Positions 4,651 to 63,794 of a stretch of DNA of 64,000 nucleotides are shown in pieces. How positions within the stretch are numbered: position 1 is the first letter of the stretch; each line of letters starts with the position of its first letter. The notes under the pieces were generated by a model. That model was not told the DNA's origin. It did not search any database and was given only the letters and a program-made list of their open reading frames with translations. Made by a program: the position numbers and the translations under genes. The DNA is from a virus, in the IMG/VR virus record IMGVR_UViG_3300023172_000011, positions 54,643 to 118,642 of that record; one strand, given 5' to 3'.

Positions 4651-5102
4651 AAACAATGATATGCTTGGATCACTTAGCTTATTCTTATCAAAACTACGAA
4701 CTGTTCCATTCTATTAATGAGGTCGTAGAAAATTCACTAGAGGAAGTATGTATTGTTCCATTCAATGCTAGTAGACCATTTATGAATATCAATACATCCA
4801 TCTATAATGTTGGAGAAATGAGTTCGTTTAATAATGGGTTGCTTATCTCCAATAGCATCAAGCATGTAGATAAGTTGCTATCGTGTCCATCAAATACAAT
4901 CAAGGCGTTGTATCTATATGATTTAGAATGGATGTTTGAGCCAACCTTCTTTGAAGAACTATATAGTATTTTCACTAATAAAAACCTAAAACTTATTGTA
5001 AGATCCAAAGAGTTCATCGAGCCAATACAATGTATTGCTGATAGAACGCCAGATGCAATTGTACCCTATTTCAAATTGGAGAAGATATGGAATTCGCTTT
5101 AA
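4647..5102 (+). CDS. Hypothetical protein, last of the sugar operon
   Basis: A 151-residue protein without a recognisable motif. It has alternating hydrophobic strands (MICLDHLAYS, KALYLYDLEWMF, LKLIVRSKEF) typical of a single Rossmann half, similar to the N-terminal half of a GT-B enzyme that lost its partner half. It overlaps the gene before by 4 bases and the endonuclease gene after by 16 bases. Confidence 0.5.
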   Translation: MKTMICLDHLAYSYQNYELFHSINEVVENSLEEVCIVPFNASRPFMNINTSIYNVGEMSSFNNGLLISNSIKHVDKLLSCPSNTIKALYLYDLEWMFEPTFFEELYSIFTNKNLKLIVRSKEFIEPIQCIADRTPDAIVPYFKLEKIWNSL

Positions 5103-59065: not shown

Positions 59066-59076
59066 GTAGCCGCCAC

Positions 59077-59099
59077 GAGTCGCCCTTGGAGGGCGGCTC
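59077..59099 (+). repeat. Hairpin repeat copy 1
   Basis: GAGTCGCCC-TTGGA-GGGCGGCTC forms a 9-bp stem with one T-G pair, followed by AAAAAT. The flanking pattern (AGCCGCCAC before, CGCAAAACTCGGGAAATTCT about 20 bases after) recurs in the other copies. It lacks a T run on either strand, so it is not a standard terminator. Confidence 0.85.
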
Positions 59100-59210
59100 A
59101 AAAATACTGTCAACAGCAAAATACGCAAAACTCGGGAAATTCTCTAAAAAAAGAGGGAAATCATTTGGGGAAAATCTTTTTTTTCTTGCGGAATTTTATG
59201 CAGAAGCCTA

Positions 59211-60348: not shown

Positions 60349-60364
60349 TTAATTAAGCCGCGAC

Positions 60365-60387
60365 GAGTCGCCCATTCAGGGCGGCTC
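60365..60387 (+). repeat. Hairpin repeat copy 2
   Basis: GAGTCGCCC-ATTCA-GGGCGGCTC, then AAAAAT; same loop as copy 4. TTAATTAATTAAG precedes the module and CGCAAAACTCGGGAGATTCT follows it. Confidence 0.85.
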
Positions 60388-60488
60388 AAAAATATTGTCA
60401 ATAGCAAAATTCGCAAAACTCGGGAGATTCTCTAAAATAAAAGGGGGAATACTTGGGAAAAAGTTTCAGGATTTTATTCACAAGGGTC

Positions 60489-61016: not shown

Positions 61017-61032
61017 TTAATTAAGCGGCGAC

Positions 61033-61055
61033 GAGTCGCCGCCATACGGCGGCTC
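61033..61055 (+). repeat. Hairpin repeat copy 3
   Basis: GAGTCGCCGCC-ATAC-GGCGGCTC can pair in two registers (inner GCCGCC/GGCGGC or outer GAGTCGCC/GGCGGCTC). CGTAAGACTCGGGAGG follows. Confidence 0.8.
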
Positions 61056-61115
61056 AAAATTTCTCACTATTCGTAAAACACGTAAGACTCGGGAGGATTT
61101 TTTCAAGAATACCTC

Positions 61116-62326: not shown

Positions 62327-62352
62327 AGGTTAATTAATTAAGTAGCCGCGAC

Positions 62353-62375
62353 GAGTCGCCCATTCAGGGCGGCTC
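62353..62375 (+). repeat. Hairpin repeat copy 4
   Basis: GAGTCGCCC-ATTCA-GGGCGGCTC followed by AAAAATTC, the same stem and loop as copy 2, with TTAATTAATTAAG before it. CGCAAAACACGGCGATTCT follows. Confidence 0.85.
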
Positions 62376-62474
62376 AAAAATTCTCGCAATTGGGAAAACC
62401 GCAAAACACGGCGATTCTCTAAAATAGGAAAGGCATTCCCACGAAAATAATCCGGAAAACATAAAGAACACTAC

Positions 62475-62502
62475 TTGACTTTGCCGATATAGATTGTATA
62501 AT
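62475..62502 (+). promoter_or_regulatory. Early promoter P11
   Basis: TTGACT and TATAAT are 16 bases apart with TTGCCGATATAGATTG. The expected start (+1 near 62509) is 3-5 bases before the tRNA-like RNA. Confidence 0.9.
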
Positions 62503-62512
62503 GAAAGAACAA

Positions 62513-62644
62513 GGGAACGCTTAATGGCAAGACTCCAGATTGCGACTCTCGGATTCAGATTAACTGCTACACGTTTCGCAGCGTGTGACCTTATGGCGAG
62601 TCTGATTGCTGGAGAGAATGTGAGTTCGATTCTCACCGTTCCCA
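62513..62644 (+). ncRNA. tRNA-like RNA with extended anticodon arm
   Basis: The ends pair as a 7-bp acceptor stem (GGGAACG 62513-62519; CGTTCCC 62637-62643) plus discriminator A. Directly before it, GTGAG-TTCGATT-CTCAC (62620-62636) is a textbook T arm. A short D-like arm CTT-AATGGC-AAG follows the 5' acceptor strand. CTCCAG (62533-62538) pairs with CTGGAG (62609-62614), but 70 bases lie between, with further helices GACTC/GAGTC and ACACG/CGTGT. No CCA is encoded. An overlapping ORF (62524-62697) would run into the next promoter, which makes it doubtful. Function unknown. Confidence 0.6.
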
Positions 62645-62679
62645 CTAAAATATTTCCAAAAAAAGTTCAAGTATACCCC

Positions 62680-62707
62680 TTGACAATGCCGATATAGATT
62701 GTATAAT
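62680..62707 (+). promoter_or_regulatory. Early promoter P12
   Basis: TTGACA and TATAAT are 16 bases apart with ATGCCGATATAGATTG; the last 14 spacer bases match P11. Confidence 0.9.
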
Positions 62708-62750: not shown

Positions 62751-63530
62751 ATGGTTGAGTTTTCCAAGGCTAACGCGAAGCTGGAAAGTCTGTACGATGT
62801 TCCTGAATTGCAGGAATGGTTCGGCAAGACAAGGCGGAAAATTTATTCCTTCGATTTATTGTCGGGATATTCTTGCCCGTTTGCTGAAAAGTGTTTCTCA
62901 AAAGTTAAGGAAACCGCTGGCAAACGTAGTATTCAGGACGGCCCCAAAACGGAATTCCGTTGTTTTTCCGCATCGCAGGAAGCGACGTTTCCAAGTACCT
63001 ATGATAAGCGGAAGCGTAATTTTGACGCCTTGCGTGGTTTGCATCTCAACGATATGATCCACGAACTTAACTCGTCATTGCCTAAGAATGCGGCTATCAT
63101 TCGCATCCATGTAGCAGGCGATTTCTTCTCGCCGGACTATATGTTCGCATGGATCAATGTCGCAATGATGCATCCGGATGTTCTGTTTTATGCCTATACT
63201 AAGTCGCTTTCTTATTGGCTGCGGTATAACAAGTATATCTCTCAACTCGATAACTTTGTTTTAACTGCATCGCGTGGTGGTCGTCAAGACGATATGATCG
63301 ACCAACACAATCTGCGAGAAGCTAAGGTTGTATTCTCAGAGGCAGAGGCAGACGCTCTAGGCTACGAGATCGACCACACTGACGAACACGCAGCAATTCC
63401 AGAGATTCGCGACGAATCGTTCGCACTATTGATTCACGGCGTGCAGCCTAAAGGCAGCGAAGCCGCCGCTGCGATTAAGGAACTTAAAAAACGTAAAGTT
63501 AAGTTTTCCTATAATCGAAAGGCGGTGTGA
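62751..63530 (+). CDS. Gp88-like phage protein
   Basis: A 259-residue protein of a phage family that I associate with Gp88 (function unknown). YSCPFAEKCFSKVKETAGK and KTEFRCFSASQEATF hold the three conserved Cys. IIRIHVAGDFFSPDYMFAWI and VLFYAYTKSLSYWLRY are the other family blocks. The start is the second of two adjacent ATGs, seven bases behind GGGAG. The Cys positions and the GD motif suggest a metal or cluster site and perhaps an enzyme; this is inference. P12 drives it directly. Confidence 0.7.
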   Translation: MVEFSKANAKLESLYDVPELQEWFGKTRRKIYSFDLLSGYSCPFAEKCFSKVKETAGKRSIQDGPKTEFRCFSASQEATFPSTYDKRKRNFDALRGLHLNDMIHELNSSLPKNAAIIRIHVAGDFFSPDYMFAWINVAMMHPDVLFYAYTKSLSYWLRYNKYISQLDNFVLTASRGGRQDDMIDQHNLREAKVVFSEAEADALGYEIDHTDEHAAIPEIRDESFALLIHGVQPKGSEAAAAIKELKKRKVKFSYNRKAV

Positions 63531-63670: not shown

Positions 63671-63697
63671 TATAATATTATAAGGGGCCGCAACGTC

Positions 63698-63715
63698 GCC
63701 GCTGCTCACAGCGGC
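63698..63715 (+). repeat. Hairpin repeat copy 5 (diverged)
   Basis: GCCGCT-GCTCAC-AGCGGC followed by TCAAAAATTC. CGCAAGACTCTGGGAAG follows 20 bases later. The 5' arm differs, but the 3' side and the tail match the other copies. Confidence 0.7.
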
Positions 63716-63794
63716 TCAAAAATTCTATAACTTGGGAAACCGCAAGACTCTGGGAAGTTTGGTTTTTCTGGAAGAAAAGTTGAAGATTTACGGC

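Follow-up and report, generated by a model that had tools for sequence, protein, structure and literature searches.

A tRNA-shaped RNA gene of an uncultured phage with a predicted pseudoknotted insert at the anticodon-loop position

The window analysed here, a stretch of 64,000 nucleotides from a viral record of 118,642 bases, harbors a 132-nt gene (positions 62513-62644, plus strand, on which its parts, the promoters, and the coding gene described below lie) whose predicted product has the shape of a tRNA. The 5′ strand of its acceptor stem, GGGAACG (62513..62519), pairs over 7 bp with 62637-62643, the 3′ strand CGUUCCC being followed by a discriminator A with no encoded CCA (62637..62644), as is also the case for the ordinary tRNAs of this phage. 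Between these strands lie a D-like arm (CTT-AATGGC-AAG, 62520..62531) with GG in its loop; a stem at the anticodon-stem position, P2, whose strands CTCCAG (62533..62538) and CUGGAG (62609..62614) enclose 70 nt; a 5-nt variable loop, AGAAT; and a T arm (GUGAG-UUCGAUU-CUCAC, 62620..62636) which carries a tRNA consensus T loop and abuts the 3′ acceptor strand. All of these parts are directly visible in the sequence, and an earlier note on this DNA had described the acceptor stem, the D-like and T arms, and the stem enclosing 70 nt.

A sigma-70-type promoter, TTGACT-16-TATAAT (62475..62502; 11 of 12 consensus positions), ends 10 nt upstream of the gene, and a start 7 nt past its -10 box would fall 3 to 5 nt ahead of the acceptor stem, in agreement with the dedicated promoter predicted in the earlier note. 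The same promoter type recurs throughout the region, and a perfect example (TTGACA-16-TATAAT, 62680..62707; 12 of 12) sits between the RNA gene and the downstream coding gene, which it is predicted to serve. This coding gene (62751..63530) belongs to the GP88 family (PF17338, function unknown; Pfam 3.3e-39), and the ATG at 62751 is its likelier start, because the alternative at 62706 falls inside the -10 box. A terminator pattern was sought for the RNA gene and none was found. Based on its own promoter, the distinct GP88 promoter, and a CCA-less 3′ end like that of the phage's tRNAs, a separate tRNA-like transcript is considered likely. The region also contains an intergenic repeat of approximately 56 nt (GCCGCGACGAGTCGCC...GGCGGCTCAAAAATTCT), the five copies of which (59068-59123, 60356-60411, 61024-61079, 62344-62399, and 63686-63741) end ahead of promoters.

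The Rfam tRNA model (RF00005) aligns exactly to 62513-62644, with 72 nt placed in the anticodon loop, at a score of 21.2 bits, which is below the gathering threshold of 29 bits. ARAGORN, run with default settings or with introns allowed, made no call at these positions, and an Rfam scan of the whole window at gathering scores gave no match. Folding of the single sequence returned a minimum free energy of -42.4 kcal/mol (z of -2.2, with 3 of 200 shuffles equally good), which is suggestive only, while in the shuffled window a perfect T arm with a 7-bp acceptor within 420 nt arose approximately 0.7 times per strand. Given such a z score and such a rate of chance pairs, the evidence of the window alone was not decisive, and relatives were therefore sought.

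The downstream GP88 gene led to related viral contigs; the others were reached with a motif pattern and with a covariance model (R1). The resulting group, here termed family A, comprises the window element and five further distinct sequences from six more viral records, all of them metagenomic and from uncultured viruses: L112 (1597-1728, minus strand), L005 (4791-4921, this copy being named L005b), L064 (4678-4808), L097 (5514-5646, with an identical sequence in L098), and L119 (1501-1628, minus strand). Family A scores 86 to 139 bits with R1, the lowest value belonging to L119, the sixth sequence, which was found by the model and left out of its building. The sequence common to L097 and L098 extends over 38 bp upstream, the element itself, and 8 bp beyond it, the flanks being otherwise different. 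Of the 11 stretches retrieved with the pattern TTTCGC..TGACCT.., L112 was the only new family member and L003 was the window's own sequence; among the other nine, the eight inspected (all but L110) were not tRNA-like, and L100, retrieved with an earlier pattern, was a chance match.

Comparison of these relatives supports the central claim of the earlier note, namely, a tRNA-like RNA that has its own promoter and a giant anticodon arm. Neither outcome named in that note as refuting it was observed, since compensatory changes abound and the overlapping reading frame is not conserved, and the observation of a tRNA-shaped RNA at 62513-62644 is regarded as confirmed at the level of sequence comparison. 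In alignment A4, 85.9% of cells are paired and 17 pairs are altered on both sides; the covariation score of 0.61, which 0 of 500 shuffles reached, compares with a shuffled mean of 0.23 and falls to approximately 0.1 when partners are slid by one column. The fold with covariation that the earlier note had called for thus reveals helices kept through compensatory change. When helices were placed for each sequence separately (P3 being positioned by hand), 162 of 165 cells were paired and double changes occurred in 22 of 33 pairs, pseudoknot included, with the acceptor, D, P4, T, and pseudoknot core pairing in 5/5 and 37 of the 40 P3 cells being paired. Both sides are altered in four of seven acceptor pairs and three of five T-arm pairs, the D stem varies as CTT/AAG, CTC/GAG, TTC/GAA, and TCT/AGA, and P2 is represented by CCGG/CCGG in the other subgroup. 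The bases of the elbow contacts (D-loop GG and T-loop UUCRA) are kept in every family A copy except L119, the T loop of which is degenerate (AUCGUCA).

According to this comparison, the insert at the anticodon-loop position is composed of P3, P4, and a pseudoknot within P2. P3 pairs UCGGAUUC (62549..62556) with GAGUCUGA (62598..62605), is represented among relatives by variants including UUUGUUAC/GUAACAAA and UUUGCCAC/GUGACAAA, and is picked independently by thermodynamic folds of L112, L064, and L119. P4 is a hairpin, ACACG-UUUCGCAG-CGUGU (62569..62586), whose stem covaries (ATTCC/GGAAT, ATCCC/GGGAT, and AATCC/GGATT) around a conserved 8-nt loop, UUUMGCRG. The two stacked inner helices of the earlier note are thereby retained as P3 and P4, though as an incomplete description, since UUGCGA (62540..62545), located after the 5′ strand of P2, is also predicted to pair with UCGCAG in the P4 loop (62576-62581). 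This pseudoknot, the main structural addition to the earlier description, takes the form CGCUA/UAGCG in the other subgroup, with two pairs altered on both sides; its support is good but not overwhelming, because just two sequence states occur. P4 is followed by a single-stranded conserved segment, GACCU...GGC (62587..62597), in which GACCU is invariant across the family and GGC nearly so, and the unpaired conserved bases as a whole (UUA, CUA before P4, UGACCU, and UUG before the 3′ strand of P2) suggest a tertiary core. A GACTC/GAGTC inner stem was dropped, as it is broken by L112, whereas GATTC/GARTC holds.

Within close pairs, the insert is better kept than the tRNA body, with divergences of 9% versus 24% for the window and L112 (P = 0.02), 15% versus 41% for L005b and L119 (P = 0.001), and 2% versus 12% for L064 and L097 (P = 0.05), which fits a constrained payload held by a scaffold that drifts through compensatory change; between the two subgroups, insert and body diverge about equally. 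The element is missing from most GP88 relatives and was not found in close terminase relatives, and it would therefore appear to be dispensable. The family A pattern was absent from 84,980 species genomes, and blastn searches of 50,697 phage records returned zero matches for each of three queries (the window element, L064, and a family D element). In T4 and in cultured phages with GP88 relatives, model R1 yielded ordinary tRNA-size matches only.

With regard to RNA class, the 7-bp acceptor, the D arm, the 5-nt variable loop, the T arm with its UUCRA loop, and the discriminator are those of a canonical tRNA (RF00005), whereas the large insert and the score below gathering are not; no 7-nt anticodon loop and no anticodon are present, and the 5′ strand of P2 is not followed by U33. 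Because the anticodon loop is missing, the RNA would not decode. Because a tag open reading frame and a G3-U70 pair are likewise lacking and no Rfam family fits, identity as either a tmRNA or an ordinary tRNA was rejected. We regard the overall interpretation of the earlier note as partly supported, and we propose, at somewhat better than even odds, that the gene specifies an independently transcribed phage small RNA in which the tRNA elbow (acceptor, D arm, and T arm) would serve as a chassis for processing and stability and the pseudoknotted insert as the effector. Host RNase P, RNase Z, and CCA-adding enzyme would trim, cap, and stabilise such an RNA as they do tRNAs, and the RNA would act in trans, with the insert as its working part, employed as an RNA or protein ligand in the course of infection. 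In related viruses, similar tRNA bodies bear different inserts, which supports this proposal, while the equal divergence of insert and body between subgroups, the degenerate T loop of L119, and the dispensability of the element count against it.

The alternative that survives best, although we deem it unlikely, is a decoy that would tie up, through its tRNA-like ends, a host tRNA-handling enzyme or a tRNA-targeting defence (an anticodon nuclease, an RNase, the CCA enzyme, or EF-Tu), the changed anticodon arm making the RNA resistant or tighter binding. Maintenance of the tRNA elbow by compensatory change and an accessory, patchy distribution are consistent with such a function, and the tag-less tmRNA of phage DS6A, which inhibits host tmRNA when expressed (PMC11915505), provides a precedent for it and thus for tRNA-shaped phage effectors in general; yet a conserved pseudoknotted insert would be superfluous for a simple decoy, and no anticodon loop is left as bait.

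A reduced relative of tmRNA, composed of a tRNA-like domain and one pseudoknot and acting in, or blocking, ribosome rescue, seems improbable. The topology is indeed shared with tmRNA (including its permuted form and the tag-less RNA of DS6A), in which the anticodon arm of a tRNA elbow is likewise replaced by P2 and one or more pseudoknots and which is similarly phage carried; moreover, the same phage encodes a full permuted tmRNA, and a relative, L008, has a tag-less tmRNA-like domain. Pair 3-70 is nevertheless G-C in every family A member, rendering alanylation unlikely, no tag frame is conserved among the six sequences, and the D arm is base-paired where tmRNA has a GGAUUCGAC loop. Of the searches suggested in the earlier note, ARAGORN was silent as described above, RF00023 gave no match, and the permuted model RF04321 gave 11.1 bits, all from the T arm, against 47. 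The tmRNA-like label of that note consequently holds as an analogy of layout and not as membership.

Still less probable is a precursor tRNA with a small anticodon-loop intron removed by an unknown mechanism. ARAGORN with introns allowed does interpret some other long elements in this manner (in L007, L034, L045, and L049), but not the window element, and joining at P2 restores neither a 7-nt loop with U33 nor an anticodon. To our knowledge, no bacterial splicing system acts on such a small anticodon-loop intron. The insert of approximately 70 nt is far too short for a group I intron, which is thereby excluded, as the earlier note had correctly stated, and no Rfam intron match occurs in the window.

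It is very unlikely that the element acts in cis, as the leader of the GP88 gene, instead of being a free RNA. The GP88 gene lies directly downstream of the element in four viruses (the window, L005, L064/L099, and L112), but the consensus promoter at 62680-62707 intervenes, and in L097/L098 the GP88 gene was not found within the examined locus. An own promoter is present 10 to 28 nt upstream in four of six copies (window, L112, L005b, and L064), while no match was observed in L097 and L119 within the 120 nt searched. Chance resemblance, or a short protein gene at 62494-62697, where a frame overlapping the RNA gene is open in the window and in its nearest relative, L112, is already refuted by the relatives and is given almost no weight, as the frame carries stops in all others (L005b, L064, L097, and L119), indels of 2 and 1 nt in the D loop shift it, and the covariation was unmatched by shuffling.

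Among known systems, the nearest analogues appear to be T4 rnaC and the DS6A RNA. Engineered tRNA scaffolds, in which a structured RNA is grafted into the anticodon stem of a tRNA for in vivo production and stability, share the architecture, with a tRNA as the chassis of a foreign RNA domain; these are man-made, whereas the window RNA would be a natural, covarying case, and if the chassis proposal is true, nature anticipated this trick of RNA engineering. The T4 RNA reportedly was sequenced in the 1970s. Its perfect tRNA T arm (CCGGG-TTCGAAT-CCCGG) lies at the 3′ end, and a long hairpin occupies the place of the anticodon arm. Two small stable RNAs encoded by T4, rnaC (species 1 RNA, 139 nt) and rnaD, still have no known function (PMC3014915 and PMC9697503), and rnaC belongs to the same length class as the predicted 132-nt RNA. 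In contrast to the window RNA with its own promoter, rnaC is transcribed within a tRNA cluster; besides a large extra arm, it has an acceptor that is imperfect by our own reading, and it is not matched by the family A model, the R1 matches in T4 being ordinary tRNAs alone. Family A, which Rfam lacks, combines a pseudoknot with support from compensatory changes and offers a comparative route to the long-standing question of the purpose of such tRNA-like stable phage RNAs. No description of such a family was found in the open-access PMC literature.

Further tRNA-shaped elements, with unrelated inserts, were recognised by shape in related viruses, all covariation counts referring to family A. They include elements in L005 (4465-4592) and L043, both with a TTTCGC-loop hairpin (GATTG/CAATC versus GACTG/CAGTC), in L006 (4349-4525) and L034 (3137-3313), both with TGATC loops, and in L007 (6414-6574), L045 (9847-10028), and L049 (4595-4729), as well as a tRNA-like element of 136 nt in L318 (115-250), a terminase relative of 82% identity. 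A blastn search of the 50,697 phage records with the L007 element returned a 26-nt T-arm match only. It is possible, though we would put it at short of even odds, that large environmental phages use the tRNA elbow as a modular scaffold for swapped RNA domains; with the same reserve, this tentative reading would cover at least the family A pseudoknot and several unrelated inserts, as a class comparable to, and distinct from, tmRNA. Such genes are probably under-annotated, since standard tRNA finders skip them.

Several additional RNA features were observed in these records. The L318 insert contains TTTTGCGAGGGATGACCT, which closely resembles the core of family A, TTTAGCGGGGGATGACCT. Another group of RNAs, of approximately 160 nt and found in L133, L137, L143, and L144, combines a CACTGA/TCAGTG-type stem with a T arm of the tRNA type and a D-like arm that contains GG, the acceptor pairing being unclear. 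In L049, a type-P5 twister ribozyme (4737-4795, 57.1 bits) begins within 8 nt of the tRNA-like element and could set its 3′ end. An unannotated RNA element follows class-II-like tRNA-shaped genes in L007 (6574-6660) and L318 (after position 250), with a compensatory closing stem (CTTATACT/AGTATAAG versus CTTACACT/AGTGTAAG) and a CCCCGCAAGGGG hairpin, and a similar core occurs after the L006 element. The approximately 110 bases directly after the L112 element (minus strand), whose beginning is common to L099, contain two hairpins with TGCAA-type T loops (CCGGTGCAAATCCG and GGGGTGCAATTCCCC).

The permuted tmRNA of the phage lies outside the window in the same record (L009, 8146-8448; RF04321, 87.6 bits), just after genes for tRNA-Gln, -Leu, and -Asn, and ARAGORN likewise calls it as permuted, with the tag AKPSFALAA. 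In L008 (985-1067), a tmRNA-like tRNA domain retains G3-U70, with 26 nt replacing the usual ~318 (RF00023, 38.9 bits, E value of 4.6e-12, below gathering), and is a candidate tag-less tmRNA comparable to the DS6A RNA. Partial one-piece tmRNA matches (RF00023, 49.5 to 63.9 bits) occur in four GP88-carrying viral records (L134, L135, L136, and L141). The phage genome also harbors tandem DUF1501 genes (L009, 9960-11213 and 11222-12493); the second has its nearest cellular relatives mostly among Planctomycetota (60 to 70% identity), its single best match being a SAR202 metagenome bin, and this preponderance suggests a planctomycete host.
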